Positions 17,383-40,397 of a stretch of DNA of 48,867 nucleotides are shown here, in pieces. A program made the translations under genes and the position numbers. Within the stretch, counting starts at the first letter, position 1, and each line of letters opens with the position of its first letter. Under the pieces are notes generated by a model. The model was not told the DNA's origin. It searched no databases and saw only the letters and a list, made by a program, of their open reading frames with translations. Origin of the DNA: Barnesiella sp. (GTDB lineage: Bacteria > Bacteroidota > Bacteroidia > Bacteroidales > Muribaculaceae); NCBI GenBank assembly GCA_014800945.1, contig JAAVFD010000037.1, positions 1 to 48,867 on the forward strand, given 5' to 3'.

Positions 17383-18900
17383 TCAGTAGGGAATCATTTC
17401 AGATAATATCTTCTGAGTGTACCATGGATCATCCGCTTCTTTGAGCAAGGGCACCATTTCTGCGCAGAGTTCCGACACGATATCCTTATGTTTTTCCAAA
17501 GAAAGATTGTTCATCTGATAAGGGTCTGCCACATCATCAAAAAGGAGTGAGCTTTTAAGTTTGCCTGTTTTTTTGTCAATCGTTAGTGCCAGAGTATATC
17601 TGTCTGTCTTTATGCCACGCGACACAGGGAAATAGCTGATAACGTTGCCGAGTGAATCGCGGTTGCCGTCACTGTTTTTAATATATAGAGCTCCCTTGCG
17701 TAATGGAGTGACATTGCTTGTTCCGAGAAATCTGCCGGAGTAATCGCGTCCCTCAATCTCTGCGGGTATTGAATCAGCAAGTCCTGCAATACCGAGGATG
17801 GTAGGCATGATATCCGGGCTCGACATAATCAGCTCAGTATCAATGCCGGGGGTTATTTTGCCGGGGAGTCTCACGAGCATAGGCACATTCATGCTTTCTG
17901 CGTAAGGTGAATTTTTGGGGTCATTAGTGCCTTGGCTACACATTGTTTCACCGTGGTCTGACGAAAATATTACCAATGTGTTGTCTGCGAGTCCAAGGCT
18001 GTCAAGAGCGTGGAGTATTCGTCCGAACTGACGGTCAACACCTGTTACTGAGGCAAAATAGTATCTTATACTTGGAGCTTTAGCCATAGTCGTGTCGGCA
18101 TTCGGGCGCACATACAGTTCACTTAAAGCCTTGTCAGCATACAGCGCATAATCCTCTTCAGGGCAATCCTCTGTGGAGCGGTACGGGCTATGAGGAGGGT
18201 TATAGCTCACCATCATAAAGAATGGTTTCTCAGGGTCGCGCACATTATCCTTGTTGGTCATGTAATCGATAGCCTTGTCCGTTTCATGTTCGGGTGACCA
18301 TTGGTTGATGTCATAGCGATGTCCTTCTGTATCCCAGTAATGGGGATGCTTGTGCACATCGAATGTGCCGTAGCTGTACCAGTAATCAAAGCCGTGCCGT
18401 TTTTCGGGTGGAGTGTAAGCATCCCAGGCAGGAACCTGAGTCTCAACATAGTGTCCCGGATTTTCGGGGTCATTTGGAGTGGGATGATTTGCATGAAGTT
18501 TACCTATGTAAGCGCAGTTATACCCTGCGTTGTGGAACACGTCGCTTATGCACATGGCATCGTCTCGCAAATCACTCACCGGGCGGTTTGCAACGCAGTT
18601 GGTGCTTATCCCGGAATTGTTGCTGAACATTCCGGTGAGAAGCATTCCGCGGTGAGGTGAACTTAACGGGAAATTACTCTGGCATGAGGTAAGTACTTTC
18701 GCCTGTTTCGCAAAACCGTTAAGATTCGGTGTTACAACCGGGTCACCTGTAAAGTTTACTGAGTCGCGAAATCCGTCCTCACTCCAGAATCCCATGGCAT
18801 GGTTGCGCATCTGGTCAGGAAAAACATAAATAACATTTGGTGCCTTTGCCACAGCAAGAGTTGCTGATAGAGACAACACACCAGTGAGAATATGTTGCAT
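17383..18900 (-). CDS. Secreted S1-family sulfatase (serine-type)
   Basis: A 505-residue arylsulfatase-fold enzyme with an N-terminal signal peptide (LTGVLSLSATLAVAKA). The sulfatase signature is S80-S-P-H-R, the C/S-x-P-x-R type; S80 would be converted to formylglycine by an anaerobic sulfatase-maturing enzyme, which is not in this window. Calcium-site residues are visible in VFPDQM (D29, Q30) and in IFSSDHGE. It likely removes O-sulfate groups in the periplasm so that the lyase or GH88 products can be processed. As third gene after susC and susD it indicates a sulfated glycan. The exact sulfate position cannot be read from sequence. The ATG at 18900 is clear. Confidence 0.9.
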   Translation of the reverse strand: MQHILTGVLSLSATLAVAKAPNVIYVFPDQMRNHAMGFWSEDGFRDSVNFTGDPVVTPNLNGFAKQAKVLTSCQSNFPLSSPHRGMLLTGMFSNNSGISTNCVANRPVSDLRDDAMCISDVFHNAGYNCAYIGKLHANHPTPNDPENPGHYVETQVPAWDAYTPPEKRHGFDYWYSYGTFDVHKHPHYWDTEGHRYDINQWSPEHETDKAIDYMTNKDNVRDPEKPFFMMVSYNPPHSPYRSTEDCPEEDYALYADKALSELYVRPNADTTMAKAPSIRYYFASVTGVDRQFGRILHALDSLGLADNTLVIFSSDHGETMCSQGTNDPKNSPYAESMNVPMLVRLPGKITPGIDTELIMSSPDIMPTILGIAGLADSIPAEIEGRDYSGRFLGTSNVTPLRKGALYIKNSDGNRDSLGNVISYFPVSRGIKTDRYTLALTIDKKTGKLKSSLLFDDVADPYQMNNLSLEKHKDIVSELCAEMVPLLKEADDPWYTQKILSEMIPY

Positions 18901-18994
18901 CTTACTCTGTGTTTTTTTAGAAAGAGTGAAGACAATGGAAGCTATTGAGACTCACCATTGCCTTCACAATAAAGATTATGTGAAAAGTTCAAGT

Positions 18995-20713
18995 TTATTG
19001 CCAACCGGGGTTCTGGGTCAGATCCGGGTTCTTGTCAATTTCACCGCTTGGAATAGGCCAGAGATAGTCACGGTCTGAAACAGAGCGTGTGTAGAGGCTC
19101 TTGGAACCGGTGATATACATCTCTTTCTTACTGTTGAGTGTTTCAAGAAGCCCCCAACGCTTCATGTCGAAGTAGCTCTGTCCTTCGCAGGCGAGTTCAA
19201 CTGCGCGCTCATGACGGATGCGTGAGAACACCTCGTCTTTAGAGTTAGCACTCAAGAAAGCGGGTCCACTGTTGATTCCGGGCATTCCGGCACGTGTGCG
19301 CACCTGATTGATAAGAGCTACCGCACCGGTCTGATCACCAAGCTCGTTCAAGCATTCAGCTTGCATAAGAAGCACATCTGCATAGCGGATGAGAGGGAAG
19401 TTGATAGGAGTATCTTCACGGTTGTTGATTGCACCGTTCATATTACCTTCCGGTACGAATTTACGCCAAAGATAAGCCTCATGGTTGCCGTTAACATTGA
19501 TGAAAGCACCATCGTTTGGAATACCCATACCCTTGAAGATAGCGAATTCAAAAGTTTTGTTGGCGTTTTTGGACCAACCGGCATAAGTTGTATAAGGCAG
19601 GATGATTGAAGCAGCCATGCGTGGGTCACGCTGAGAATACATCTGAAGAAGTTGTTCTTTATAGGGGGTGTATTCCTCAATCGCTGTTTTTGTGGTATTA
19701 GGTTTGGAATACCATACCTCCTGTTTGATTGTATTGCTGCTGTTATAACCCGGTACCACTTCATCCCAGTCAAAAGGTCTGCCATCAGCCCATTCGTATG
19801 AATCAACGAATGTAGTAGCAGGCATTACATTGTTCCAGCAAGAACCGTATGCAGCACGCGCGCCAAGATAGAAACACATCGGCATACCTATGTCCTGGCC
19901 AACACCACCGAGATTCTGAATGGCGAAAATCATCTCAGAACTTTCGTCTCCGGCTGGTTTGAACAGATTGGCATAATTGGAGTAGAGGGCATATTTGCCT
20001 GAGTCAATGATATTTTTGAAACAATCGGATGCTGCCTGATACTGCTTGGCGTAGAGATAAACCTTTCCCTTGAGAGCAGTAGCCGCGCCTGAGGTCGCTC
20101 TGCCTGCATTAGCTGCATCCCATGATGCCGGAAGGGTTGTTTCAGCATCCTTAAGGTCAGCGATAATGAAGTTGCGCACTTCCTCTTCAGTGTTACGGGG
20201 TTTCAACATCTGAGTAAATTCTTCGGCAATAATGGTGGTCTCATCATAAATGGGTACACCGCCATAAAGATTCAACAGATTGAAGTAGAACAAGGCTCTC
20301 ATGAATTTAGCTTCTCCTTTGTACTGCGCTTTTAACTGGTCAGTCATATCTACATTGTCGATGTTCTGAAGCACATTGTTTGCGCGTGCGATACCCTCGT
20401 AGGTATATGTCCAGGTATTGGAGAAGTAGGCTGCATTAACAGCAACTGTACCACGCTGAATTGTCTGATAAGAGGGGTTGTCATATCCAAATGATACTCC
20501 GCCCAGACAATCAAACGAAAAGTACATGCCAAAAGTAGCGGTGCTGTGCATCTGGCTGTAAACACCCATCATAGCCTGCTTGGCGTGAGATTCGGTCTTG
20601 AAGAAGGTACCCGAACTCAACTGGTTGTCAGGGTAGCGATCGAGATCGTAGCAGCTTGAGAGCGATAATGTGGAAATAGTCGCTGCTGCTATTAGTATTT
20701 TATTGAATTTCAT
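18995..20713 (-). CDS. susD: SusD/RagB-family glycan-binding lipoprotein
   Basis: A 572-residue outer-membrane lipoprotein that closes over its SusC partner and binds oligosaccharides at the cell surface. The signal peptide ends in the lipobox SLSSC (Cys near residue 21), followed by YDLDRYPDNQLSSGTFF, which is typical of the family. The C-terminus has the common RHERAVELACEGQSYFDMKRWG and WPIPSGEIDKNPDLTQNPGW motifs. It starts 15 bp after susC and belongs to the same transcript; 94 bp separate it from the sulfatase gene. The ligand is inferred from its neighbours to be a uronate-containing glycan. Confidence 0.97.
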   Translation of the reverse strand: MKFNKILIAAATISTLSLSSCYDLDRYPDNQLSSGTFFKTESHAKQAMMGVYSQMHSTATFGMYFSFDCLGGVSFGYDNPSYQTIQRGTVAVNAAYFSNTWTYTYEGIARANNVLQNIDNVDMTDQLKAQYKGEAKFMRALFYFNLLNLYGGVPIYDETTIIAEEFTQMLKPRNTEEEVRNFIIADLKDAETTLPASWDAANAGRATSGAATALKGKVYLYAKQYQAASDCFKNIIDSGKYALYSNYANLFKPAGDESSEMIFAIQNLGGVGQDIGMPMCFYLGARAAYGSCWNNVMPATTFVDSYEWADGRPFDWDEVVPGYNSSNTIKQEVWYSKPNTTKTAIEEYTPYKEQLLQMYSQRDPRMAASIILPYTTYAGWSKNANKTFEFAIFKGMGIPNDGAFINVNGNHEAYLWRKFVPEGNMNGAINNREDTPINFPLIRYADVLLMQAECLNELGDQTGAVALINQVRTRAGMPGINSGPAFLSANSKDEVFSRIRHERAVELACEGQSYFDMKRWGLLETLNSKKEMYITGSKSLYTRSVSDRDYLWPIPSGEIDKNPDLTQNPGWQ

Positions 20714-20728
20714 ATTGCTCTTTCGATA

Positions 20729-23700
20729 TTAGAATGTAACATTTATACCGAGCACAGCCTGACGCATGGTGGGATAGTTCATGCCGGAAACTTCGGGGTC
20801 AAAGCCTTTGAAGCTTGTGAATGTGAAGAAGTTTTCAAGTGTGCCATAAATACGCACTTTGCTGAGCTGGCAAGCATCTGTCCATTTGGAAGGAAGTGTG
20901 TAACCAAGCTCAATGTTACGTATCTTGAGGAAAGCAAGGTTCTGGAGATAGAAGTCACTTGCCTGCTGGTTTATTGTAGTCTGGTACTGGAGAAGACGGG
21001 GATATGTGGCGTCTGTTCTGCCGGGATACCAGCGACCGTCAGCCACCTCTTTGTTGATCTGATAACCGTAGCGAACAGTCGGAGTGTTGTATGCAGTGGA
21101 CTGCCAGTAGCGTTTTGCACCGAGCTGTGACTGCATGAGCATGCTGAAGTCAATGCCTTTCCAGCTTGCGTTGAGAGTAAGACCCATATACCATTTGGGG
21201 TTGGGACCGTCAGACACAATCACACGGTCGTCAGCGTTGATGATACCGTCACCATTGGTGTCTTTATAGAGGAAGTCACCGAGCTGAGGTGTGCCATAAG
21301 ACGCGAAAGGATTCACTTTCTTACCGTTGCTTCCGAGGGGTGCGTTGTCAATCATATCCTGAACAATTTTCATATCCTCTTCTGTCTGAAGAATACGGTC
21401 AACTTTCAGGAGGTACTGTGAGTTGATTGAGTGGCCTTCCCATATAAGGTTAGCGCCTGAAATAGACATACCGTCTTTATCTTTTCCACGGAATTTGTCA
21501 ACAACATTGGTTACGTATGTAGCGTTGGCGCTGATACCATATCTGAAATCACCGATATTGTCATTCCATGTAGCGGTAAGTTCAAAGCCCTGGTTGGTTA
21601 CACCTGCGCTGTTGAGTTTTGGAAGTGAAGTTGTTCCGTGAACAGCTGGAGCGGGGAGTGAGATAAGAATGTTTGAAGTCTTTTTGTTGAAGTAGTCAAC
21701 AACTGCTGTGAAGCGGTTGCGGAACAGGCTGAAGTCAACACCTACGTCAAATACTTTGGTTTTCTCCCAAGTAACAAGCGAATTAGGAATTGCGCTCATT
21801 GCCATACCGGTTGCAAGAGCGTTGCCAAGTACATAGCTCATGCCTGAGTTGGTGTAAAGTGCCTGATAGTCATAGTTGCCGATAGAGTTGTTGCCGAGTT
21901 CACCATAGCTTGCACGGAGCTTGAATGAGTTAAGACCCTTGTCAACAATACCCTGCATGAAGGGCTCCTGCTCAAGACGCCAGCCTATTGAACCTGAGGG
22001 GAATGTGCCCCAACGGCGCTCTTTTGCAAAACGGCTTGAACCGTCACGGCGCAGGTTGAATTCAACGAGATATTTTTCAGCCCAGTTAAGGTTGATACGG
22101 CCGAAGAAGCTGCGCATTGACCATTCTGTTGAGCTTCCGCTTGCGCTTGCATCACCTGTGCAGGCACTGAGAGCCCATAGGTTGATATCGATAAGATCCT
22201 GTTTTGAAGCAGAGAAGCTCTTTGAACGATACAACTCGTTTGAAGCACCAACCATGAGATTGAGCTGGAGGTTGTCAAAGAATTTCTTATCGTAGCGACC
22301 AACAAAGTCATAGAAATAACGTTCTACCTTGCCGTCAGAGTTGCTGACAGAGATTTTACCGGTGCTGTCGTATGTTATCTGATCGGTGAGGAAGTTCCAA
22401 CCCTGGGTAACTTTCGGTTTATTGCGTTGCTCGGTATCAGTCATCTGATAGTTGTAGCTTGCTGTGAAAGAAAGTCCTTCGTAGGGGCGTAATGTACCGT
22501 AGAATTTAGCGCGGATATTATTCTTTCTATTGTCACCCTGAATGCGGTTGGCACGGGAAATCGGGTTGTTTACCGCACACTGGCTGTCATCCTCGGGATT
22601 GTTCATAGCACCGAAACGGCCGTCAGGAGCCTGGAATACCATACCGGGGGTTGTTGCGGATGCGTATGTGAAGATGTCACTTACGGCGCGTGCACCGGCC
22701 TCGGTAATACCAACATAACCGCTGGCATTGGTTCCGAGAGTAAGCCATTTCTTGACATCTGCTTCTACATTTACGCGGCCGTTATACTGAGTGTAGCCTG
22801 CGTTAGGCATTACACCGGGGTTGTAGTTATAGCCGAATGAACTGTAGAAACGGATTTTATCTGTACCACCGCTCATAGACACCACATGGTTTGTAGCTAC
22901 AGAAGATTTGAAAGTAGCGTCAATCCAGTCTGTGTTAGGATATTTGAGCGGATCGTTGGTGTTAGCTCTCCATTCTTCAATAATGGCATCACTGAAAGTA
23001 TAGTTCTTACTTCCGTAAGTATTTTCCATACCTTCATTAACAAGTTCCATATAATCTGCATAGTTGCTTACCGGGGTAAGGGTTTTGCGGATTGACTGGA
23101 ATGATACATAACCGTGGTAGTTCACTTTTATTGAGCCGGCGGTACCTCTCTTGGTGGTGATGAGGATAACACCGTTAGCAGCACGGGAACCGTAGATAGC
23201 TGCTGAAGCCGCATCTTTAAGTACAGACATTGATTCGATGTCGGCAGGGTTTACAGTATTGATACCGGCTTCAACACCATCGATAATTACAAGGGGAGAA
23301 GCGGTATTAAGTGTTCCGACACCACGCACACGTATTGTTGCATCGTTGGCACCGGGCTGGTTGGCGGCGGAGGTGACGTTTACACCTGCAGCAAGACCTG
23401 CAAGGGCCTGGGACACGTTTGAAATAGGTCGGTTCTCAGCAATCTTTTCAACATTGATTGATGAAACAGAACCGGTAAGGTTAACTTTTTTCTGCTGACC
23501 GTAACCCACAACAACAACTTCTTCAAGTGAAGTTTCGTCATCTTCAAGGGTTACATTGTAAACGGTAGCGCCTTTTGATGTCTTGACGTTTTTAGGAAGA
23601 ACGCCGATGCATGAGAACTCAAGTACACATCCTTCTGGCACTTGAAGAGTGTAGTTACCATCAATATCGGTCATTGTACCGATTTTGGCATTGCCTTGCA

Positions 23701-23929
23701 CCTTGACAGTTGCACCTGTCAGAGGCTCGCCGGAAGAGTCGAAAACCTGTCCTTTGACTGTTACCAGGTTCTCGGCAGCGCTCACCGCGTAGGGCGAAGG
23801 AGCTGCATAGGCAGTCTGTGTACCCACCATGGGGAATGCACAGAGAGCAGCCATAGCCGCTACAGCCGACACCTTATTTATAAGAGAGCGGTTTGCAGCA
23901 GCTTTGTTCTGTGTTGCCTTGTGAATCAT
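20729..23929 (-). CDS. susC: SusC/RagA-family TonB-dependent outer-membrane transporter
   Basis: A 1066-residue beta-barrel that imports large oligosaccharides across the outer membrane using TonB energy. A long signal peptide (ends AYAAP) is followed by a carboxypeptidase-like domain (about 57-135; VKGQVFDSSGEPLTGATVKV). The TonB box and SusC hallmark region EEVVVVGYGQQKKVNLTGSV comes next, then the plug (SPLVIIDGVEAGINTVNPADI) and the barrel with the C-terminal LGINVTF. It is the first gene of the leftward susC-susD-sulfatase operon, preceded by a candidate activator-type promoter at 24016-24084. There is no Shine-Dalgarno sequence before the ATG, as is common in this phylum. Confidence 0.97.
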   Translation of the reverse strand: MIHKATQNKAAANRSLINKVSAVAAMAALCAFPMVGTQTAYAAPSPYAVSAAENLVTVKGQVFDSSGEPLTGATVKVQGNAKIGTMTDIDGNYTLQVPEGCVLEFSCIGVLPKNVKTSKGATVYNVTLEDDETSLEEVVVVGYGQQKKVNLTGSVSSINVEKIAENRPISNVSQALAGLAAGVNVTSAANQPGANDATIRVRGVGTLNTASPLVIIDGVEAGINTVNPADIESMSVLKDAASAAIYGSRAANGVILITTKRGTAGSIKVNYHGYVSFQSIRKTLTPVSNYADYMELVNEGMENTYGSKNYTFSDAIIEEWRANTNDPLKYPNTDWIDATFKSSVATNHVVSMSGGTDKIRFYSSFGYNYNPGVMPNAGYTQYNGRVNVEADVKKWLTLGTNASGYVGITEAGARAVSDIFTYASATTPGMVFQAPDGRFGAMNNPEDDSQCAVNNPISRANRIQGDNRKNNIRAKFYGTLRPYEGLSFTASYNYQMTDTEQRNKPKVTQGWNFLTDQITYDSTGKISVSNSDGKVERYFYDFVGRYDKKFFDNLQLNLMVGASNELYRSKSFSASKQDLIDINLWALSACTGDASASGSSTEWSMRSFFGRINLNWAEKYLVEFNLRRDGSSRFAKERRWGTFPSGSIGWRLEQEPFMQGIVDKGLNSFKLRASYGELGNNSIGNYDYQALYTNSGMSYVLGNALATGMAMSAIPNSLVTWEKTKVFDVGVDFSLFRNRFTAVVDYFNKKTSNILISLPAPAVHGTTSLPKLNSAGVTNQGFELTATWNDNIGDFRYGISANATYVTNVVDKFRGKDKDGMSISGANLIWEGHSINSQYLLKVDRILQTEEDMKIVQDMIDNAPLGSNGKKVNPFASYGTPQLGDFLYKDTNGDGIINADDRVIVSDGPNPKWYMGLTLNASWKGIDFSMLMQSQLGAKRYWQSTAYNTPTVRYGYQINKEVADGRWYPGRTDATYPRLLQYQTTINQQASDFYLQNLAFLKIRNIELGYTLPSKWTDACQLSKVRIYGTLENFFTFTSFKGFDPEVSGMNYPTMRQAVLGINVTF

Positions 23930-24199: not shown

Positions 24200-26110
24200 A
24201 TGAAAAAACTATTCGCATTTGCTGCTGCTTCGCTAATTGTTTTAAGCGCATCAGCCTACACTGAACGAAACCTTATAGCTTCAAGAGCTAATAAGGCTGA
24301 ATTGAAGGAAATGCTCGTGACGGATCAGAAATGGGTAAACCTTCCGGCTTATTCCGATAGAGCTGCTTGGGATTCACTCTTAGGTGACAATAAGGAGTAT
24401 TATATAAAAAGAGGTGAAAAGGCTCTTTCGCATGACTGGCCGAGAGTAAAGGCTACAGACTACCTTGAATATGAGCGTAGCGGTAACCGTAAGATTATGG
24501 AAGACCCATTGGATGCGAATAATAAGGCTGTTGCGGACCTCCTTCTTGCTGAACTTGCTGAAGGCAAAGGCAGATTTATTGACCAACTTATCAATGGTGT
24601 GTATGCAGCCTCAGAAATGACATCATGGGCATTGAGCGCACACATTCCCGCAATCAAGCCGGGACGTTCCATTCAGCCATACGACAAACCGGTAATTGAC
24701 CTCGTTGCCGGTGACATGGGAAATCTTTATTCATGGGTGTACTATTTCATGCAGCCCGAGTTCGATAAAATCAATCCGGAAATTTCACGCCGTCTGCGTC
24801 ATGAACTCAAAACCAGAGTGCTTGATCCCTATCTGGAGTATGATAAATGGTGGTGGGACGGTAGCCGTAACTATAACGGCAGAATGTTAAACAACTGGAA
24901 TCCATGGTGTCTTAGCAATGTGCTTATGACAGCTATGCTTATGGAGGATGATAAGGATAGATATACCGATATTGTTTATTACACCATGCTCGGTGTTGAC
25001 AAATTCCTTAATTATATAAAAGGTGATGGAGCTTGTGAAGAAGGACCATCTTACTGGGGGCATGCTGCGGGTAAGACTCTCGACTATGTTGATATGCTCT
25101 CGCTCGCTACAGGCGGAAAACTTGATATGAGCGACGAAAAACTCATCAAGGATATGGGTGAGTATATAGCCCGCTCATACGTTGGTGATGGATGGGTAGT
25201 TAACTTTGCCGATGCAAGTGCTCGCGGCGGTGGTGATCCTTATCTTGTTTACCGGTATGGCAAGGCAGTTGATTCGGACCTTCTGAAAAGTTTCGCAGCT
25301 CTAATGCTCAAAGAAGATAAGGCTCCCCAGAACGGACGTGATATTTACCGCACATTCGCTGCGTTTGAAATCGCTCCCGAACTTAAGGAATATAAAGCGG
25401 AGTTCAAACGTCCCGCTTACACATGGTATCCGGAAACCGAATTCTGCTACATTTCCACTCCTCAGAATCTTTTCTTTGCAACAAAAGGTGGATTCAACGA
25501 CGAAAGCCATAACCATAATGATGCCGGAACTTTCTCTGTATGGGCAGATAATTATCCTATCATTATTGATGCCGGAGTGGGAACTTATACGCGCCAGACA
25601 TTCAGTAAGGAGCGGTATTCAATATGGACAATGCAGAGTGGCTGGCACAACCTCCCTGTAATCAACGGTTTTGAACAGCCTCACGGTAGAAAATTCAAAG
25701 CTAAGGATGTTAAGGCTGGTAAAAACAGCATTGAGCTGAATCTTACAGACGCTTATCCTGCTGAGGCCGGTATTAATAACTGGACAAGGGCTTATAATGT
25801 GAAGGGACGCGAAGTGAAGGTTACTGACAAATTTGATATTAAGGAGGTTAATACACCCAATGTGGTTAATTTCCTGAGCTGGGGTGACATTGACGCATCA
25901 AAGCCGGGAGTTGTAAAAATCAATGCTAATGGTCATAAAGCTACCCTTACATATGATGCATCCCGTTTTAATGCAACAGTTACCGATAAGGATCTTCCCG
26001 ATACACGTCTAAGCAATGTATGGGGACCGAAAATCAGCAGAATTTCACTGACTGATAAGAATCCCACCAAAAAAGGTACATATACTTACACTATAAAAGC
26101 TGAAAAATAA
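24200..26110 (+). CDS. Secreted heparinase II/III-family polysaccharide lyase
   Basis: A 636-residue protein with a signal peptide (KLFAFAAASLIVLSASA). The N-terminal 370 residues look like the alpha/alpha-toroid of heparinase-type lyases (ESWxxAHI-like helices, a KWWWDGSRNYNGRMLNNWN stretch). The C-terminal half is the heparinase II/III beta-sheet domain with the hallmark ESHNHNDAGTF...IIIDAGVGTY. Such enzymes break uronic-acid polysaccharides by beta-elimination, leaving a 4,5-unsaturated uronate at the new end, the substrate of the GH88 enzyme encoded next. Which glycan is cut (heparan/heparin, chondroitin, hyaluronan or another) cannot be told from sequence alone; the sulfatase favours a sulfated one. 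It is first gene of a three-gene operon. Confidence 0.88.
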   Translation: MKKLFAFAAASLIVLSASAYTERNLIASRANKAELKEMLVTDQKWVNLPAYSDRAAWDSLLGDNKEYYIKRGEKALSHDWPRVKATDYLEYERSGNRKIMEDPLDANNKAVADLLLAELAEGKGRFIDQLINGVYAASEMTSWALSAHIPAIKPGRSIQPYDKPVIDLVAGDMGNLYSWVYYFMQPEFDKINPEISRRLRHELKTRVLDPYLEYDKWWWDGSRNYNGRMLNNWNPWCLSNVLMTAMLMEDDKDRYTDIVYYTMLGVDKFLNYIKGDGACEEGPSYWGHAAGKTLDYVDMLSLATGGKLDMSDEKLIKDMGEYIARSYVGDGWVVNFADASARGGGDPYLVYRYGKAVDSDLLKSFAALMLKEDKAPQNGRDIYRTFAAFEIAPELKEYKAEFKRPAYTWYPETEFCYISTPQNLFFATKGGFNDESHNHNDAGTFSVWADNYPIIIDAGVGTYTRQTFSKERYSIWTMQSGWHNLPVINGFEQPHGRKFKAKDVKAGKNSIELNLTDAYPAEAGINNWTRAYNVKGREVKVTDKFDIKEVNTPNVVNFLSWGDIDASKPGVVKINANGHKATLTYDASRFNATVTDKDLPDTRLSNVWGPKISRISLTDKNPTKKGTYTYTIKAEK

Positions 26111-26128
26111 TCAATAATCACATACTGT

Positions 26129-27355
26129 ATGAAAAATAGTTTTTGGATAAGTGGAATTGCAGCGCTGGTACTTACCGGTTGCGCCAATTCCGGAAAAAAT
26201 GCACAATCGGCGGAGTGGTTTGACGGTGCAGTGAAAAATGCTTCGGAGCAGATGGCTCTCCAGATTGAGGCTATAGAGGCTGACACTTCTTCAAAGGTGC
26301 TTAATCCGGTGACTGTTAAGCGTAACAGATTCAGCACATCTTACTGTGGATATGCAGATTGGCGCAGCGGATTCTTCCCCGGTTCCGTATGGTATTTATA
26401 CGAACTCACCGGAGATTCTACCCTTGTACCTCTTGCAGAGAAATATACCGAAGCTATTGCTGAGGCTCAGCATCTTACAAGTCATCATGATATAGGTTTC
26501 ATCATCAACTGTTCATATGGGAACGGAAGACGTTTTGTAAAGAAAGCAGAATATGATTCAGTTCTTGTAACAGCAGCCAAGAGCCTTTGCACCCGTTATC
26601 GCCCCGGTGCAGGTATAATCCAGAGCTGGAACACAAGCCCCGGTTCATGGCAAGCGAGCAAAGGATGGACATGTCCTGTCATCATTGATAATATGATGAA
26701 TCTTGAGCTTCTTTTCGAGGCTACCAAAATCAGCGGTGACTCAACTTTCTATAACGTTGCTGTCAATCATGCCAATACAACTATGAAAGAACACTTCCGT
26801 CCTGATGGAAGCTGCTACCATGTTATCGATTACAATCCCGAGACCGGTGAAGTGCTTCACCGTATGACCGGTCAAGGTTATGCCGATGAGTCATCATGGG
26901 CTCGCGGACAGGCTTGGGCTATTTACGGTTACACAATGTGCTACCGTGAAACCGGTGACAAGCGATATCTCGATCAGGCTGTCAAGACATTTGATTTCAT
27001 GCGCAATCACAAGAACATGCCGGCAGACAAGATTCCTTACTGGGATATGGATGCTCCTGATGTTCCAAACGAACCTCGTGATGCGTCAAGCGCTGCTATT
27101 ATCGCTTCAGCACTTTATGAACTGTCCGGTTATCCTGTAGAAAATCCCCGGTCATATAAGGAATATGCCGATGAAATCATGGCATCTCTCGCATCTGACG
27201 AATATACAGCTAAACCCGGTGAGAACGGAAGATTTATACTTAAACACTCTACCGGTTCAATTCCCCACAACAGCGAGATTGATGTGCCTCTGAATTATGC
27301 GGACTATTATTTCCTCGAAGCGCTAAAGCGGAAACGCGATATTGAGAACAACTGA
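26129..27355 (+). CDS. GH88 unsaturated glucuronyl hydrolase, lipoprotein
   Basis: A 408-residue enzyme that removes the unsaturated uronic acid from the non-reducing end of lyase products; the released sugar rearranges to 5-keto-4-deoxyuronate. The signal peptide ends in a lipobox VLTGC (C18), so it is membrane-anchored, facing the periplasm or the surface. The two GH88 aspartates are visible: D121 in SHHDIGF and D187 in PVIIDNMMN. The conserved ARGQAWAIYGY motif of the (alpha/alpha)6 barrel is also present. It starts 18 bp after the lyase gene and 15 bp before the DUF2264 gene. GH88 activity in this compartment provides the substrate for the apparently secreted KduI. Confidence 0.93.
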   Translation: MKNSFWISGIAALVLTGCANSGKNAQSAEWFDGAVKNASEQMALQIEAIEADTSSKVLNPVTVKRNRFSTSYCGYADWRSGFFPGSVWYLYELTGDSTLVPLAEKYTEAIAEAQHLTSHHDIGFIINCSYGNGRRFVKKAEYDSVLVTAAKSLCTRYRPGAGIIQSWNTSPGSWQASKGWTCPVIIDNMMNLELLFEATKISGDSTFYNVAVNHANTTMKEHFRPDGSCYHVIDYNPETGEVLHRMTGQGYADESSWARGQAWAIYGYTMCYRETGDKRYLDQAVKTFDFMRNHKNMPADKIPYWDMDAPDVPNEPRDASSAAIIASALYELSGYPVENPRSYKEYADEIMASLASDEYTAKPGENGRFILKHSTGSIPHNSEIDVPLNYADYYFLEALKRKRDIENN

Positions 27356-32953: not shown

Positions 32954-34066
32954 ATGACCAATCGACGCATTTTTTGTTTGTGTGCAGCTTTGCTTTCTGT
33001 AGCAGCCGGTTTTGCCGCCAAGCCATTGGCAAAAATTTGTGTAAGCAATAAATTGCCTCAATGGCGAACCGAGATGGTAGAGGTGGATGCCTCAAAGCTA
33101 CCCGAAGGCAATTTTGTGATTACAGATAATAACGGTATCGAAGTACCATGGCAGCGCACTTACGATAACAAAGTTATTTTTCCGGCATCAGTGGCACCTG
33201 CTTCAACAGATATGTTCATAGTTAAGGAGGGTAAACCGACTGCAATTGACAATATTGTTTATGCCGCTTTTTATCCTGAACGTGTTGATGATTTTGCGTG
33301 GGAAAATGATTTTGCGGCTTACAGAGCTTACGGAGCGGCTTCAGGAGGCGGAGTCTCCGGATATGATGTGTTCACTAAATCGACAACACGTCCGGTGGTG
33401 CCTGAAAGATATTTCAAAGAGCTTGTTCAGAAAGTGTCCTATCATATAGACCATGGTGACGGTATGGATCAGTATGATGTAGGTGCTACTCTTGGCGGAG
33501 GTGCTTCCGCTCCTTTGGATAAGAGTGGAAATCTAATATTTCCCGGAGCTTTCTCGCAATGGAGAATTTTGGATAACGGACCTCTTCGCACTACTTTTGA
33601 ACTGGTATATGAGTATGGTGGCGGTAAAGATATACGCACAATCACGCTGGATGCCGGCTCACCTTTCAATCACTCTGTATGCCGAATAGAAAATATAGAT
33701 GCTGATTCAATAGCAGCCGGAATCGTGGTTCACAAACCGGCGACTGAAGACTACCTTTTAGGAGATGGATTTGCTGCATACTCTGATCCTACAACCGGAC
33801 CCGGAAGAGGATACGGAAATATATATATAGGTGTGATAAACCCTGCCAAGGGTGGTGCATACTATAAACCTCTGAGTAAGGAGAAAGGTACAGCAGTAGG
33901 ACATCTGCTCACAACGGCACCTTACTCTCCCGGAAAAGAATTCTCTTACTACTGGGGCTCGTCCTGGAGCAAAGGTAGAACCTTGACTTTCAATAACTGG
34001 ATAGCTCAGGTTAAGGATTTTCAAACCCGCCTGGAGTCACCGCTTGAAGTAAAAGTAACACGTTGA
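32954..34066 (+). CDS. Secreted DUF4861-family protein
   Basis: A 370-residue protein with a signal peptide (FCLCAALLSVAAGFA). It matches my memory of the DUF4861 family: KICVSNKLPQWRTEMVEV at the start, VPWQRTYDNKVIFPASV, SGGGVSGYDVFTKSTTRPVVPERYF and YHIDHGDGMDQYDVGATLGGGASAP. The composition is mainly beta-strand with several conserved acidic and aromatic residues. The biochemical function is not established to my knowledge; relatives are found with GH88/GH105 enzymes and lyases. As first gene of the uronate operon (22 bp before kduD) it probably acts in the periplasm on lyase or GH88 products, for example as a lyase, hydrolase or binding protein. Confidence 0.78.
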   Translation: MTNRRIFCLCAALLSVAAGFAAKPLAKICVSNKLPQWRTEMVEVDASKLPEGNFVITDNNGIEVPWQRTYDNKVIFPASVAPASTDMFIVKEGKPTAIDNIVYAAFYPERVDDFAWENDFAAYRAYGAASGGGVSGYDVFTKSTTRPVVPERYFKELVQKVSYHIDHGDGMDQYDVGATLGGGASAPLDKSGNLIFPGAFSQWRILDNGPLRTTFELVYEYGGGKDIRTITLDAGSPFNHSVCRIENIDADSIAAGIVVHKPATEDYLLGDGFAAYSDPTTGPGRGYGNIYIGVINPAKGGAYYKPLSKEKGTAVGHLLTTAPYSPGKEFSYYWGSSWSKGRTLTFNNWIAQVKDFQTRLESPLEVKVTR

Positions 34067-34088: not shown

Positions 34089-34883
34089 ATGGTAAATTTT
34101 TCACTTGATGGGAAAGTGGCTCTCGTAACAGGCGGAGCTTATGGTATAGGTCTTGCTATCGCACAGGCACTCGCTGAGGCAGGGGCTAAAATCGTTTTTA
34201 ACTGCTCACGCCAGGAGACAGTTGATCGCGGACTCAAAGCTTATAAAGACCTCGGAATAGAAGCTAAAGGTTACTTATGTGATGTAACTGACGAGGCTGC
34301 CGTAAAGGCTATGATAGCTGATATTGAGGCTACAATAGGCACCGTAGATATCCTTGTAAATAATGCCGGTATTATCAAGCGTATTCCAATGGAGGAAATG
34401 GCTGTGGATGATTTCCGCAAAGTAATTGATATTGATCTTGTAGGTCCATTCATCTGTGCTAAGGCTGTTATACCCGGAATGATAAAGAAGGGTCATGGCA
34501 AAATTATCAACATTTGCTCGATGATGAGCGAGCTTGGCAGAGAAACAGTGAGTGCATACGCATCGGCTAAGGGTGGTCTCAAGATGCTCACACGCAACAT
34601 CTGCTCCGAGTATGGAGAGCATAATATCCAGTGTAATGCAATAGGTCCGGGCTACATTGCTACAGAACAGACCGCACCTCTCCGCGAGTTACAGCCGGAT
34701 GGTAGCCGCCATCCTTTTGATTCGTTTATTATATCAAAAACTCCTGCTGCTCGTTGGGGTGTTCCGGAAGATTTGATGGGTCCGGCTGTATTCCTTGCAT
34801 CGGATGCATCTAACTTTGTAAACGGTCACATTCTATACGTGGACGGAGGTATTCTCGCATATATCGGAAAACAGCCTAAATAA
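34089..34883 (+). CDS. kduD: 2-dehydro-3-deoxy-D-gluconate 5-dehydrogenase-like SDR
   Basis: A 264-residue short-chain dehydrogenase, cytoplasmic (no signal peptide). The cofactor loop is TGGAYGIG (about residues 15-22), NNAG is in ILVNNAGII, and the catalytic Tyr-Lys pair is YASAK. Databases often name this group gluconate 5-dehydrogenase; the neighbours kduI, kdgK and eda argue that it reduces 2,5-diketo-3-deoxygluconate (DKII) to 2-keto-3-deoxygluconate with NAD(P)H. A ribosome site AAAAGG precedes the ATG at 34089. Its stop overlaps the start of the permease gene by one base, so translation is coupled. Confidence 0.88.
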   Translation: MVNFSLDGKVALVTGGAYGIGLAIAQALAEAGAKIVFNCSRQETVDRGLKAYKDLGIEAKGYLCDVTDEAAVKAMIADIEATIGTVDILVNNAGIIKRIPMEEMAVDDFRKVIDIDLVGPFICAKAVIPGMIKKGHGKIINICSMMSELGRETVSAYASAKGGLKMLTRNICSEYGEHNIQCNAIGPGYIATEQTAPLRELQPDGSRHPFDSFIISKTPAARWGVPEDLMGPAVFLASDASNFVNGHILYVDGGILAYIGKQPK

Positions 34884-36304
34884 TGGAAGCGGTTTTCAGT
34901 TATATAATAGGACTCGGCGCTGCTGTGATGATGCCTGTGATTTTCACGGTGCTCGGGCTCTGTATCGGTATCAGATTAGGCGATGCTCTAAAGAGTGGAC
35001 TTAAAGTCGGTGTAGGTTTTGTAGGGCTTTCAATAGTTACCGCACTGCTGACTTCCGCTCTCGGACCTGCGCTTAATTCAGTAGTAGATATTTATCACTT
35101 GCAGCTCAAGGTGTTTGACATGGGGTGGCCTGCAGCGGCATCAGTTGCTTACAATACAGCTGTGGGTGCATTTATAATTCCGGTATGTCTTGGTGTCAAT
35201 ATACTTATGCTTATCACCAAAACCACCAGAACTGTGAATATCGACCTGTGGAACTACTGGCATTTCGCATTTATAGGTGCCGTTATTTTCTTTGCAAGCG
35301 ATTCTCTTGCGTGGGGATTTTTTGGAGCGATTATTTGCTATATCTTCACCCTCATTCTTGCGGATATGACAGCTAAGAAGTTTCAGGATTTCTATAAGGA
35401 CATGGATGGAATATCCATTCCTCAGCCTTTCTGTGCCGGATTTGCGCCATTTGCGTGGGCTATAAATAAAGGTCTTGATAAAATTCCCGGAATTGAAAAG
35501 ATAGAAATTGATGCCGAGGGTATGAAGAAGAAATTCGGATTACTTGGCGAACCCCTGTTTCTCGGAGTGGTTGTAGGTGTAGTTATCGGATGTCTCACTT
35601 GCTCTTCATGGGGTGAGATCGTAGATAAAATTCCTTATATACTGGGTTTAGGCATCAAAATGGGCGCTGTGATGGAGTTGATTCCGAGAGTCACAGTGCT
35701 GTTTATTGAAGGACTTAAACCGATAAGCGATGCAACCCGAAGTTTGATTGCACGCAGATTCAAGGGAGCCGACGGGCTAAATATCGGCATGAGCCCGGCT
35801 CTGGTAATCGGTCATCCTACCACTCTTGTAGTGTCTCTCCTTCTTATTCCGGTTACTTTGGTTTTGGCAGTATTGCTTCCGGGAAATCAGTTCCTGCCTC
35901 TTGCCTCCCTTGCCGGTATGTTTTATGTGTTCCCTCTTGTGCTTCCGTTCACAAAGGGTAATGTTGTGAAAACTTTCATTGTCGGTCTCGTGGTTCTCAC
36001 AGCCGGACTCTATATGGTTACAAACCTTGCACCCGCATTTACTCTGGCGGCTAAAGATGTTTATGCTGTAACGGGAGATGCTGCGGTGGCAATACCTGAT
36101 GGATTTGAAGGCGGAAGCCTCGACTTCGCATCCTCACCTTTGGCTTGGGTTATTTACCAGTGTACCGAAAATCTGAAATGGATTGGTGCAGGTGCGCTTG
36201 TGCTTATTACCATGGTGATGATGTGGTGGAACAGGGTTCACATCATTCGCAATCAGCAGGCTATGATAAAAGCGAATTCCGACAGGATACAGACAACAGA
36301 ATAA
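34883..36304 (+). CDS. Orphan GatC-type PTS EIIC membrane permease
   Basis: A 473-residue inner-membrane protein with about ten to twelve membrane helices, resembling the IIC component of galactitol-type PTS. Family stretches include VGLSIVTALLTSALGPALNSVV, MGWPAAASVAYNTAVGAF and MSPALVIGHPTTLVVSLLLIPVT. No IIA, IIB, HPr or enzyme I gene is in the window, and the protein has no fused IIB domain. It overlaps kduD by one base and lies within a uronate operon, so I infer that it is a PTS-independent carrier for a keto-uronate rather than for galactitol. The hydrophilic loop near residues 190-220 is charged. Confidence 0.88.
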   Translation: MEAVFSYIIGLGAAVMMPVIFTVLGLCIGIRLGDALKSGLKVGVGFVGLSIVTALLTSALGPALNSVVDIYHLQLKVFDMGWPAAASVAYNTAVGAFIIPVCLGVNILMLITKTTRTVNIDLWNYWHFAFIGAVIFFASDSLAWGFFGAIICYIFTLILADMTAKKFQDFYKDMDGISIPQPFCAGFAPFAWAINKGLDKIPGIEKIEIDAEGMKKKFGLLGEPLFLGVVVGVVIGCLTCSSWGEIVDKIPYILGLGIKMGAVMELIPRVTVLFIEGLKPISDATRSLIARRFKGADGLNIGMSPALVIGHPTTLVVSLLLIPVTLVLAVLLPGNQFLPLASLAGMFYVFPLVLPFTKGNVVKTFIVGLVVLTAGLYMVTNLAPAFTLAAKDVYAVTGDAAVAIPDGFEGGSLDFASSPLAWVIYQCTENLKWIGAGALVLITMVMMWWNRVHIIRNQQAMIKANSDRIQTTE

Positions 36305-36316
36305 GCTATTAAATTA

Positions 36317-37633
36317 ATGACAGAAGATTTTACTGAAGTAAATGAACGCTATTCTCTGCCTGAAGCTATACGCGAGGCGCAGAGATGTCTTCATTGTAAA
36401 GTTCCCTCATGCAAAAAGGGATGTCCCATAAACAATGATATTCCCGAATGGATTGCTGAACTTGCCAAAGGCAATTTCGGTAATGCCATGTCCATTATCA
36501 ATGAGCGCAGCAATTTGCCTGCCGTTTGCGGTAGAGTGTGTGGTCATGAGAGACAGTGCGAGGGTAACTGCGTTCTTGCCAAAAAAGGACAGCATATAAA
36601 TATTGGTAAGCTTGAACGCTTTGTAGCTGATTTTGACTCGGAGGCAGATCTCAGCCATGAGGCTATCCCGGAAAAACACCGCGGAAAGGTGGCGGTGATA
36701 GGAAGTGGACCGGCGGGTCTGACTATTGCAGGTGATTTGTCAAGACAAGGTTTTGCTGTTGAAATTTTCGAAATGGAGCCGGAACCGGGCGGTGTGCTCA
36801 TGTACGGCATTCCTGAGTATCGCTTGCCGAAGGAAGTGGTTCGCCGGGAAATCAAGAAAATTGAAAATCTCGGGGTAATATTTCATTTGAATACCACCAT
36901 AGGAGAGAATTTTACAATAGATGACCTGTTTGCCAAAGGTTTTGATGCAATATTTATGGGAACAGGCACCGGTGTACCCAAAAGACTGGATATTCCCGGT
37001 ATAAATCACCCGGCAGTTCGTCAGGCAATCCGTTTTCTAAGGCGCGTTAGTCTGTTTGAAAGTGGTTGGATGTCAAGAGATGAGGTTATTGTCGGCAATG
37101 GTGACAGGGTGTTTGTGATTGGTTGCGGCAACACAGCCATTGATGCAGCACGCACAGCTCTCAGAATGGGTAGTAAAGAGGTGAATGTGATATATCACCG
37201 GACTGTTGACAATATGAATGCACTGCGTGCGGAGTACGACGATGCTGTTAAGGAAGGCGTTAATTTTTTCTGGAAAACAAATCTTGTGAGTATTCAAGCA
37301 CTGGATGATAAGCGTATTAAAGAAGTGACTCTGAATATTGACGGCAAGGAAACAGTGCTTCCCGCAGATCATGTGATTATGGCTATAGGTAGTGCACCGG
37401 CATCAAGAATCGTTTCATCAACAGATGGAATTGAGGTGGATAACAAAGGCTATGTGCTTACAAGAGAAAGTCCTTATGGTATGACGAGCCGAAAAGGTGT
37501 GTTTGCAGGAGGCGATGTTACCAACCGTCCGGCAACAGTTGTTCATGCTATGCGTGATGCCAAGCTTGTTGCAGAAGGAATTGCACGCTATGTAGATGCT
37601 GTTAAGCTGATGGAAAGTATTAATAATGAATAA
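36317..37633 (+). CDS. GltD-like FAD/[4Fe-4S] NAD(P)-dependent oxidoreductase
   Basis: A 438-residue flavoprotein with the architecture of the glutamate synthase small subunit and of the N-terminal part of dihydropyrimidine dehydrogenase. The N-terminus binds two iron-sulfur clusters (CLHCKVPSCKKGCP and CGRVCGHERQCEGNC). The FAD loop is VIGSGPAGL (about residue 124) and the NAD(P) loop is VIGCGNTAIDAA (about 270); the C-terminal GGDVTNRPATVVHAM closes the FAD site. No glutamate synthase large subunit or other partner is nearby. Here it lies between the permease (12 bp) and kdgK (10 bp) genes in a uronate operon, so it may move electrons between NAD(P)H and an unknown acceptor. Function is unassigned. 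Confidence 0.85.
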   Translation: MTEDFTEVNERYSLPEAIREAQRCLHCKVPSCKKGCPINNDIPEWIAELAKGNFGNAMSIINERSNLPAVCGRVCGHERQCEGNCVLAKKGQHINIGKLERFVADFDSEADLSHEAIPEKHRGKVAVIGSGPAGLTIAGDLSRQGFAVEIFEMEPEPGGVLMYGIPEYRLPKEVVRREIKKIENLGVIFHLNTTIGENFTIDDLFAKGFDAIFMGTGTGVPKRLDIPGINHPAVRQAIRFLRRVSLFESGWMSRDEVIVGNGDRVFVIGCGNTAIDAARTALRMGSKEVNVIYHRTVDNMNALRAEYDDAVKEGVNFFWKTNLVSIQALDDKRIKEVTLNIDGKETVLPADHVIMAIGSAPASRIVSSTDGIEVDNKGYVLTRESPYGMTSRKGVFAGGDVTNRPATVVHAMRDAKLVAEGIARYVDAVKLMESINNE

Positions 37634-37643
37634 TAGAGAAGTA

Positions 37644-38666
37644 ATGAGCAAAATAATAACTCTTGGAGAAATAATGCTTAGATTGTCACCCGCAGGTTGT
37701 AACCGATTTGTGCAGGTTGACAGTTTTGATGTGATATGGGGTGGTGGAGAAGCCAATGTAGCAGTGAGTTGCGCAAACTACGGGCATGACGCTTTCTTTG
37801 TCAGCAAGCTACCAACTCATGCAATCGGGCAGGCGGCAGTAAGTGCACTGCGTAGATACGGTGTTTGTACAGATTATATAGCCCGTGGTGGTAATCGTGT
37901 GGGAATTTATTATTGTGAAACAGGTGCTTCTATGCGCCCCTCTAAAGTGATATACGATCGCGCCAATTCAGCTATTGCAGAAGCAAATCCTGAGGATTTT
38001 GATTTTGATGCGATAATGGAAGGTGCTGACTGGTTTCATTGGAGCGGAATCACTCCGGCAATCAGTGATAAGGCGGCAGAGTTAACGCGTCTTGCATGTG
38101 AGGCGGCAAAGCGCAAGGGAGTAACTGTGAGCTGTGACCTTAATTTCCGTAAAAAATTGTGGACGAAGGAAAAAGCGCAGAGCATCATGCGTCCCCTTAT
38201 GCAATATGTTGACGTGTGTATCGGTAATGAGGAGGATGCTGAATTGTGTCTCGGATTCAAACCGGCTGCCGATATTGAGAACGGTGTGACAGATGCTTCC
38301 GGTTATAAAGAAATATTCAAAGCAATGGCTGCTGAATTCGGTTTCAAGTATGTCGCATCAACTCTCCGGGAATCCTTCTCGGCAACTCATAACGGATGGA
38401 AAGCTATGATTTTCAATGGCGAGGAGTTTTATGAAAGCAAGCGTTATGATATCAATCCCATAATTGACAGAGTTGGAGGCGGTGACTCTTTCTCGGGAGG
38501 ACTTATTCACGGTTTGCTGACAATGAGTACTCAGGGTGAAGCTTTGGAGTTTGCGGTAGCGGCTTCAGCGTTGAAGCAGACTATTCCCGGAGATTTCAAT
38601 CTTGTAACTGCCGACGAAGTTAAAGCTCTTGCCGGTGGTTCGGCTAACGGAAGGGTTCAGCGTTAA
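37644..38666 (+). CDS. kdgK: 2-keto-3-deoxygluconate kinase (PfkB family)
   Basis: A 340-residue sugar kinase that phosphorylates KDG to KDPG with ATP in the cytoplasm. N-terminal [12 protein letters not shown] and [23 protein letters not shown] bind the sugar; the C-terminal [16 protein letters not shown] is the PfkB signature, with the catalytic Asp in GGGDSF. The ATG at 37644 is chosen because relatives start just before this motif and an AGAGAAG precedes it; another ATG at 37626 overlaps the preceding gene. Its neighbours before and after in the pathway (kduD, eda) support the assignment. Confidence 0.92.
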
Positions 38667-38682
38667 TTATAAAGATGTTACT

Positions 38683-39351
38683 ATGGCAAAATTTGATAAA
38701 ATTGCAGTTCTGAATAAAATGGCTCAGGCACCTATGGTACCGGTATTTTATCACAGTGAGGCTGAGGTTGCTTGCAATGTGGTTAAAGCTTGTTACGAAG
38801 GAGGAGTCAGAGTATTTGAGTTTACAAACCGTGGAGACTTTGCACAGGAAGTATTTGCACAGGTGGTTAAATTTGCTGCAAAGGAGTGCCCGGACATGGC
38901 GATAGGTGTTGGGTCGGTTGTTGAACCGGCAACAGCCGCTCTGTATATGCAAAACGGTGCTTGCTTTGTTGTTGGGCCCCTGTTTAATCCTGCAGTGGCA
39001 GCCGTGTGCAATCGTAGGGGAGTTCCTTATGTACCCGGTTGTGGTAGTGTGTCTGAAGTAGGTGCTGCTCAGGAAGTGGGATGTGATGTTTGTAAGGTAT
39101 TCCCCGGCGATGTGCTCAGTCCGAAATTCGTTAAGGGTCTGCTCGCGCCAATGCCTTGGAGCAGGCTTATGGTTACCGGAGGAGTCGAACCCACTGAAGA
39201 GAATCTTACGGCATGGTTTAAGGCGGGAGCATTCTGTGTGGGTATGGGATCCAAACTATTTCCAAAAGAAAAGGTGCTTGCCGGTGACTGGCAATATATA
39301 ACCGAAAAATGTAAGTATTCGTTCAATCTAATATCCCTGATAAAGAAATGA
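38683..39351 (+). CDS. eda: KDPG/KHG aldolase
   Basis: A 222-residue aldolase that splits 2-keto-3-deoxy-6-phosphogluconate into pyruvate and glyceraldehyde-3-phosphate. The Schiff-base lysine is K138 in [10 protein letters not shown] and the acid/base glutamate is E46 in FEFTNRG; the GVGSVVEP and [13 protein letters not shown] segments fit the family. The ATG at 38683 lies 16 bp after kdgK. The stop overlaps the kduI start (ATGA, 4 bp), so the two are translationally coupled. There is no signal peptide; it acts in the cytoplasm. Confidence 0.93.
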
Positions 39352-40268
39352 AAAAAGTAATTATGTCCATAGCCATTAGTGTGGCTGCTATTGCTGCCGG
39401 TGCACAGACATCTTACACCGTGATGCGTGCTTGTCATCCGGATGATGTGAAAAAGTATGATACCGACCAGTTGCGTTCTCATTTCATGATGCCTAAAGTT
39501 ATGGAAGAAGACAAGATAAATCTTACATACTCGATGTATGACCGTCTTATCTTCGGCGGAACAATTCCTGTAAACAAAACAGTAGTTCTTGAAACAATAG
39601 ATCCTCTTAAGGCTGAATATTTTCTTGAGCGTCGTGAGCTTGGTGTAATCAATATCGGTGGTGACGGAATAGTATCTGTTGACGGTAAAGATTATGAACT
39701 TCACTTTAAGGATGCGCTTTATGTTGGCAGAGGTAATAAAAACGTTACATTCCGTTCAAAGAATCCGGCAAACCCTGCAAAATTCTATATCAATTCAACG
39801 CCGGCGCATAAAGAATACAAGACTCAGCTTATCACTATTGACGGAAGAAAAGGTTCGTTAAAGGCAAACAGCTTTGCTGCCGGTAAAATGGAGGATAGTA
39901 ATGACAGAGTTATAAATCAACTCATTGTAGCAAATGTTCTTCAGGAAGGACCGTGCCAGTTGCAGATGGGTCTCACTGAGCTAAAGCCCGGATCTGTTTG
40001 GAACACCATGCCTGCTCATACTCACGACCGTAGAGTGGAAGCATATTTCTATTTCAACGTGCCTGATGGTAATGCTATTTGTCATCTTATGGGTGAACCT
40101 CAGCAGGAACGTCTTATATGGCTGCACAACGAACAGGCTGTAATGGCGCCCGAGTGGTCTATCCATGCTGCTGCCGGAACTTCAAACTATATGTTCATCT
40201 GGGGCATGGGTGGAGAAAACCTTGATTATGGTGATATGGATAAGGTTTCTTACACAGAAATGAAATAA
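39348..40268 (+). CDS. kduI: KduI-family 5-keto-4-deoxyuronate isomerase with a signal peptide
   Basis: A 306-residue isomerase that converts 5-keto-4-deoxyuronate (DKI) to 2,5-diketo-3-deoxygluconate (DKII). The zinc ligands are all present: H224 and H226 in [10 protein letters not shown]231, and H273 in WSIHAA. They are offset by exactly 28 from E. coli H196, H198, E203 and H245, so the fold is full length. The extra N-terminus is MKK, a hydrophobic stretch (residues 4-17) and GA before Q20, which reads as a signal peptide cleaved after A19. KduI enzymes are normally cytoplasmic. An internal ATG (codon 26, 39423) could make a leaderless form, but no ribosome site is seen there. It overlaps eda by 4 bp and ends the operon. 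Confidence 0.93.
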
Positions 40269-40301
40269 GGAATTCCCGCACATTAAAAATCTATTTAAGA
40301 G

Positions 40302-40338
40302 ACTGTGTCGTTTAGCCACGGCACAGTTTCTTATTTTG
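40302..40338 (+). terminator. Terminator of the uronate operon
   Basis: ACTGTGTCG (40302-40310) pairs with CGGCACAGT (40319-40327) across an 8-nt loop with one G-U pair, followed by TTCTTATTTT. It lies about 35 bp past the kduI stop. Confidence 0.8.
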
Positions 40339-40397
40339 TAAGATAACTGATCATCTATGTTAACTTCATGAGTTCTGTCATTGAAGGATTGTGCTTT

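Follow-up and report, generated by a model that had tools for sequence, protein, structure and literature searches.

A KduI isomerase with a predicted signal peptide and its EIIC permease neighbor: a proposed periplasmic step of uronate breakdown in gut Bacteroidales

The stretch of DNA analyzed here (the window: 48,867 nucleotides from Barnesiella sp., contig JAAVFD010000037.1) carries on its forward strand an operon in which the genes are ordered DUF4861, SDR, EIIC-GAT, GltA-like oxidoreductase, PfkB kinase, aldolase, and KduI. The DUF4861 protein (32954 to 34066) was recognized by Pfam and has a signal peptide according to our scorer. It is followed by an SDR reductase (34089 to 34883), proposed for the next, cytoplasmic step, which scores 490 bits against NF005488 (cut-off, 369) and falls outside KduD as defined by TIGR01832 (227.9 bits; cut-off, 338.85). 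The EIIC-GAT (GatC-like) permease (34883 to 36304) was characterized by Pfam, TIGR, and genome searches and a model, and is our proposed importer of the KduI product. Three genes identified by profile matches come next: a GltA-like Fer4_20/pyridine nucleotide-disulphide oxidoreductase (36317 to 37633), a PfkB sugar kinase resembling KDG kinase (37644 to 38666, with the start set at the second ATG), and a KDPG/KHG aldolase (38683 to 39351, with the start set at an ATG). The kduI-type gene (39348 to 40268) encodes 306 amino acids, a proposed exported 5-dehydro-4-deoxy-D-glucuronate isomerase, and its description rests on the open reading frame, the NF002091 profile, the signal scorer, an AlphaFold model, and a PDB match. 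Its ATG at 39348 overlaps the stop codon of the aldolase gene as ATGA (39348 to 39351). Directly after kduI, at about 40300 to 40340, an inverted repeat and then a T-rich stretch can be seen by eye; this looks like a terminator that ends the operon.

Further genes of the locus lie upstream. On the forward strand, scorer and domain matches identified a heparinase II/III-like lyase with a signal peptide (24200 to 26110) and a GH88 family hydrolase (26129 to 27355). The first-pass annotation had described the GH88 enzyme as a lipoprotein, and a lipobox was indeed found. On the reverse strand (17383 to 23929) are a sulfatase, identified by a domain match, and genes that we take, from their sequence, to be SusD-like and SusC-like. 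An SGSH_C domain on the sulfatase, a DUF2264 gene, and a hybrid two-component regulator are also present, and the locus is GAG-like.

The KduI protein scores 396.4 bits against the KduI equivalog profile NF002091 (cut-off, 250) and therefore belongs to that family; it is the sole KduI match of its own genome, which is 82% complete. Its residues H224, H226, E231 (codons within 40017 to 40040, forward strand), and H273 (40164 to 40166, forward strand) do not vary across 49 aligned relatives. We take His-His-Glu-His to be the KduI metal site and these four residues to be its ligands. The ligands of the Escherichia coli enzyme are H196, H198, E203, and H245, and with these numbers the constant offset of 28 noted in the first-pass annotation holds for all four. 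The same annotation placed all 28 extra residues at the N terminus, and this part has to be revised, as the N-terminal extension amounts to about 22 residues (if this native numbering holds), with internal insertions and deletions contributing the net 6 that remain. When the protein is aligned with 1XRU, the shift relative to the chain numbering grows from 19 at query residue 24 to 25 at H224, and the biggest of the internal differences lies near residues 166 to 172. The signal-bearing clade described below has an internal insertion at about window residues 165 to 180, and the cytoplasmic-type rows shown lack it. This insertion could possibly alter the oligomer or the substrate.

The window protein was read in the first-pass annotation as starting with a signal peptide cleaved at A-G-A/Q. 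Our scorer likewise called the N terminus as a Sec-type signal comprising residues 1 to 19 (39348 to 39404, forward strand), with the predicted cut between AGA and Q at residues 19 and 20. By this heuristic it has the features of Sec export, namely, a charged n-region, a hydrophobic core, and small residues at positions -3 and -1, which are kept in relatives, and the cleavage-site consensus of the relatives' alignment is A-Q. The scorer is purpose-written and not a general predictor. When applied to window genes, it called seven of nine exported-type proteins (the sulfatase and a membrane-anchored PBP were missed) and none of 15 cytoplasmic-type or membrane entries, among which KdgK was entered with two starts; no export signal was called for the window SDR, KdgK, or KdgA. 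Other protein families gave 72/76 calls for DUF4861, 11/12 for GH88, and 13/17 for SusC, and 0/47 for KdgK, 1/52 for KdgA, 0/27 for UxaC, and 0/12 for mannitol-dehydrogenase-like proteins. Under the all-starts rule there were false positives in the SDR cluster (27/130), LacI (6/46), and EIIC, which are membrane proteins (32/61), and because of these the value of the scorer here is comparative. Gln at position +1 was up-weighted after the window-gene controls, which alters the chosen site but leaves the decision between signal and no signal unchanged.

The scorer was applied to 188 KduI loci, consisting of 80 from named genomes (the best 80 of 594 relatives), 107 from a sample of the order, and the window. 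In this set, including the best 80 of the 594 named relatives, a signal was called in 61 loci and was absent in 127. Gln occupies position +1 in 55 of the 61, a number that the scorer itself raises in part by favoring Gln when picking sites. All 29 KduI loci read from the window's own family have the signal. In a second family, it was present in 30/30 fetched KduI loci, of which 28 are EIIC-linked, and in 37/37 other EIIC-linked loci. This family has 60 further KduI places not linked to EIIC, of which 43 were scored, 3 were cytoplasmic loci from the first set (L164, L195, and L197), and 14 were unread; two of the 43 were called, both spurious on inspection. One locus of this family (L384) has what looks like a signal-bearing second copy without a start codon, near an N in the assembly. 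The consistency of the same-family, second-family, and EIIC-linked sets, together with the tree split described below, rules out chance or a lone-gene artifact as the source of the signal. Two other possible signs of export were considered. The motif D[ST][ALIVMT], which we take to be an O-glycosylation motif, shows no enrichment in the signal-bearing proteins (0.23 per protein, compared to 0.57 in shuffled sequences), and cysteine content showed no clear difference between signal-bearing and other KduI proteins; these counts do not support either feature as an independent sign of export.

The alternative is that the N terminus is not a working signal, or that translation starts at codon 26 (39423), and that the enzyme is cytoplasmic as usual. 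The window KduI does have Met26, the NF002091 match begins at residue 26, and in 24 of the 61 signal-bearing loci the stretch from the cleavage site to five codons after residue 28 contains an ATG, often at position 25. In the same stretch, however, 37 of the 61 loci have no ATG and 26 have no start codon of any kind, and Met26 itself, the start that the first-pass annotation had named as the case against export, is found in just 3 of the 61. Among the other KduI genes with an ATG up to 30 codons upstream (n = 120), the nearest ATG corresponds to query positions 15 to 21 in 118 and to position 25 in 2, so that a codon-26 start would make the protein shorter than almost all relatives. The fold argues in the same direction. 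In the AlphaFold model, built from 49 rows (mean pLDDT, 88), most of residues 1 to 17 have values below 50, and the first strand comprises residues 21 to 26, which belong to the fold and would be removed by a codon-26 start. The ATGA overlap at 39348 also fits the upstream start, and the closest solved structure contains residues from Gln20 onward. The full-length protein was called by the scorer and the codon-26 version was not. We consider a start at codon 26 ruled out by conservation, fold, and the starts of relatives, even though 24 of the 61 loci have some ATG there, and a cytoplasmic enzyme in general is highly improbable.

Comparison with solved structures gives further support. The window model has the KduI fold, with TM scores to the target of 0.94 to 0.98 against 9KD0, 1XRU, and 7E4S. 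The closest is Bacteroides ovatus KduI2 (PDB 9KD0, released 2025-10-29), with 76% identity and a TM score to the target of 0.98, whose PDB title describes KduI2 as responsible for glycosaminoglycan metabolism. At position 2, the 9KD0 chain has a Gln that aligns with Gln20, the predicted mature start of the window protein. As only one residue, presumably Met, precedes this Gln, we infer that the makers of the construct evidently omitted the signal, and the signal-bearing KduI is thus evidently already known, as a protein, to at least one structure group. The sister entry 9KCZ, B. ovatus KduI1, aligns as the cytoplasmic type, and B. ovatus has both types according to the PDB titles and chains. 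B. ovatus KduI2 at full identity was absent from our 201-genome sample of the second family, where the best match was 89%. No paper naming 9KD0, 9KCZ, or B. ovatus KduI2 was found in the literature searched, which mostly excluded subscription papers. The cytoplasmic KduI proteins (E. coli 1XRU/1X8M, Lactobacillus rhamnosus 7E4S, and B. ovatus KduI1 9KCZ) share the fold, the metal ligands, and the family profile with the window protein; their aligned chains, however, have neither the signal peptide nor the internal insertion. Based on the conservation of the signal in relatives and on the KduI2 chain, the export of the window KduI that the first-pass annotation suggested is very probable as a prediction.

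A tree was calculated from 182 rows, with the signal region excluded and five short rows omitted. One branch separates 64 rows, including the window, from 118 rows in which no signal was called. The 64 rows consist of 59 with a called signal and five from Kiritimatiellae/Verrucomicrobia. Support for this branch was 81 by SH-aLRT and 0.63 by FastTree, and the group of 60 rows that contains the window has a support of 100. Because of this split, the signal-bearing KduI is to be regarded as one old clade and not as a local oddity. The comparison of N termini proposed in the first-pass annotation therefore shows a signal kept through one clade, mostly of Bacteroidales, which in sequence terms fits a single origin. 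The five nested Kiritimatiellae/Verrucomicrobia proteins (L048, L050, L051, L053, and L054) have a short, hydrophobic, uncharged N terminus that the scorer rejects, and four of them have an EIIC match nearby; this pattern resembles a lateral transfer in which the signal was altered. Both KduI types occur together in G078, G182, G388, G930, G975, G978, G982, G1000, G1014, and G1042, where the second copy is of the cytoplasmic type, and the stretches fetched for L035 and L042 each contain a second KduI gene. The presence of KduI by itself does not imply a cytoplasmic route.

The signal-bearing type is strongly linked with the EIIC permease. In the 188 loci, which include the best 80 of 594 named relatives, an EIIC match lies near 57 of the 61 signal-bearing KduI genes and near 4 of the 127 others, and these 4 are from the Kiritimatiellae/Verrucomicrobia branch nested in the signal clade. 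Wherever EIIC was matched (61 loci), it is upstream of KduI on the same strand. It is usually the gene immediately upstream, with intervening genes in L005, L006, L007, and the window, where the distance is 3 kb. Cytoplasmic-type KduI, on the other hand, was not found adjoining EIIC in the genome samples. The exceptions are L081, L047, L052, and G897 (85% complete), in which KduI has the signal but no EIIC was found in the searched stretch or genome; the stretch of L010 begins at a contig edge. Among 393 genomes of the order sample, KduI is present in 103 and EIIC in 10, and these are exactly the 10 genomes with signal-bearing KduI; 3 of them (G078, G182, and G388) have a cytoplasmic-type KduI as well. 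Fisher's exact test within the 103 KduI genomes gives a P value of 4e-14, with two unread N termini (G011, a fragment that was unfetched, and G262, a partial match) counted as unsigned and kinship uncorrected; four short KduI fragments (G011, G131:C219, G164:C246, and G370:C215) were left out. As the signal-bearing KduI fits a single origin, the EIIC link is inherited and such P values overstate independence.

A better argument that KduI and EIIC are a working unit is that their presence within a family is patchy but joint. Of 149 genomes from the window's family, 38 have both genes, 1 has KduI alone (G897), none has EIIC alone, and 110 lack both; the nine other listed members of the window's own genus lack both. 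In the second family (201 genomes), KduI is present in 115 and EIIC in 66, all 66 with KduI, and downstream of 65 of 67 EIIC places KduI follows on the same strand at a distance of less than 500 bp; for the remaining two, KduI is on another contig. For this count, a fragment from G1113 was omitted, and EIIC matches that were split in six genomes were joined manually. No genome in the three samples (393, 149, and 201 genomes) has EIIC without KduI. A phylum sample of 395 genomes gave four EIIC matches, three of them clear and known before, which rules out EIIC as a general Bacteroidota gene; the fourth, in G690 (66 residues, 18.9 bits), was taken as chance. A natural comparison is offered by L145 (G352), with SusC, SusD, sulfatase, lyase, and GH88 at 51 to 59% identity; its KduI is cytoplasmic-type, and EIIC was not found in the stretch or genome.

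The permease has the EIIC-GAT domain and fold (PF03611, 262.7 bits), shared with UlaA (4RP8/4RP9). It resembles GatC, the PTS galactitol IIC protein of Leminorella grimontii (9U82), with an E value of 2e-83 by sequence and a TM score of 0.78 by model, but with 386.7 bits it is below the cut-off of 542.2 of the galactitol EIIC profile TIGR00827. Another difference from GatC and UlaA concerns the phosphorylation partners. The search covered PTS-HPr, PTS_IIB, and the EI N-domain, and each of these three was found in none of the 10 EIIC genomes (the window's own genome is 82% complete); positive controls gave HPr in 7/14, PTS_IIB in 6/14, and the EI N-domain in 7/14. The permease therefore probably works without phosphorylation. 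There is a precedent in PMC10989795, where a mutated galactitol-type permease was deduced to carry unphosphorylated xylose in E. coli without ptsI, with the IIA and IIB genes present.

The combined results suggest a scheme in which some gut bacteria convert a uronate breakdown product outside the inner membrane and then import it. The lyase and the lipoprotein GH88 would release unsaturated uronate outside the inner membrane, and this would open to 5-keto-4-deoxyuronate (DKI, which is the same as DHU). The exported KduI may then convert DKI to the 2,5-diketo acid (DKII) in the periplasm, and the GatC-like EIIC, as a carrier without PTS, may bring DKII into the cell. There the SDR would reduce DKII to KDG, and KdgK and KdgA would finish the pathway. 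The first-pass annotation had already proposed that a secreted KduI acts on the GH88 product before import, and the conserved signal, the KduI2 chain, and the GH88 lipobox support this at the sequence level. The annotation did not include the linked orphan permease, which would provide the import step. That the exported KduI and the orphan EIIC form a periplasmic isomerize-then-import module is the reading we favor, and the KduI product is the probable substrate of EIIC.

It is also conceivable, though unlikely, that KduI is exported while EIIC imports another solute of the same glycan, such as a saturated hexuronate or an amino sugar, with DKII entering by an MFS transporter or with several carriers serving both uronates. 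We infer the substrate of EIIC, which scores below the galactitol profile and whose model shows the fold, not the substrate. Moreover, an MFS cluster is found near KduI in 14 of 64 signal-clade loci and 35 of 123 others (one member scanned); as it accompanies both KduI types, EIIC is not the sole candidate importer. The MFS gene is, however, optional and common to the cytoplasmic type, whereas EIIC is usually directly upstream of signal-bearing KduI and never occurs without KduI in the three samples.

A different reaction would be the isomerization of saturated glucuronate or galacturonate to fructuronate or tagaturonate in the periplasm, with EIIC importing these products. PMC3578941 reports that E. 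coli KduI facilitates the conversion of both hexuronates, isomerization being the hypothesis of its authors, and the signal clade has the internal insertion that is missing from the other-type rows shown; both points speak for this reaction. It nevertheless seems quite improbable, as the operon encodes an SDR, a kinase, and an aldolase that match the KDG route, the metal ligands and fold are unaltered, and the PDB title of the closest relative points to GAG metabolism.

The periplasmic module with DKII as the imported compound may include the DUF4861 protein as well. In g383, one genus of the window's family, the EIIC frame is 883 to 915 amino acids long in G792, G814, G835, and G854. In three loci (L254, L255 at 289 to 2925, and L256), a lipobox recognized by eye is followed in one frame by the EIIC N terminus, and Pfam confirmed both DUF4861 and EIIC on L255. 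In such a fusion, a periplasmic domain would sit directly on the permease. Taken with the frequent adjacency of EIIC and KduI, these three fusions would also agree with a physical inner-membrane complex of KduI, EIIC, and DUF4861 that passes the intermediate on directly. We regard such a complex as very improbable, since no fusion of KduI itself was noticed among the loci read and the window kduI is 3 kb away from EIIC. A broader proposal is that gut Bacteroidales have a second, extracytoplasmic uronate route, comprising the exported KduI, which would convert the reactive aldehyde to a diketo acid in the periplasm, a PTS-less EIIC as the DKII carrier, and an exported, sometimes fused DUF4861 partner, gained and lost as a unit; this we put forward only tentatively.

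Published work covers part of this scheme. In the kduI-dhuD clusters of Bacteroidota, which concern DHU metabolism, the reductase paired with KduI is one different from KduD, as in the window; the accessible portion of that study (PMC12838403) makes no mention of EIIC adjoining kduI, and the words "signal" and "PTS" are absent from its main text. Studies of GAG use by Bacteroides (PMC6994673, on the GAG locus of Bacteroides thetaiotaomicron, and PMC9067506) describe, in the parts available, monomer import in general terms and BT4653 as a putative hexose transporter for heparan sulfate, and leave the inner-membrane carrier of unsaturated uronate unnamed. Neither an exported KduI nor a KduI-linked EIIC is described in the accessible text of PMC12838403, PMC6994673, PMC7953866, PMC8072126, PMC9067506, PMC3578941, or PMC10989795. 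The permease link, the absence of PTS partners, and the DUF4861 fusion are apparently new, as they were not met in the literature searched (subscription papers being mostly outside it); that literature also yielded no paper on DUF4861. The module would supply an inner-membrane carrier for unsaturated uronate and predict in what form the compound crosses; it would also connect DUF4861 and an orphan permease of the PTS type with the use of GAG and pectin. A pectinesterase/GDSL cluster lies near KduI in several Bacteroides relatives (eight signal-clade loci and three others), and both GAG and pectin settings would feed unsaturated uronates. Genes for GltA-like oxidoreductases such as that of the window operon occur near 8 of the 61 signal-bearing KduI genes and 1 of the 127 others, in the set that includes the best 80 of 594 named relatives.
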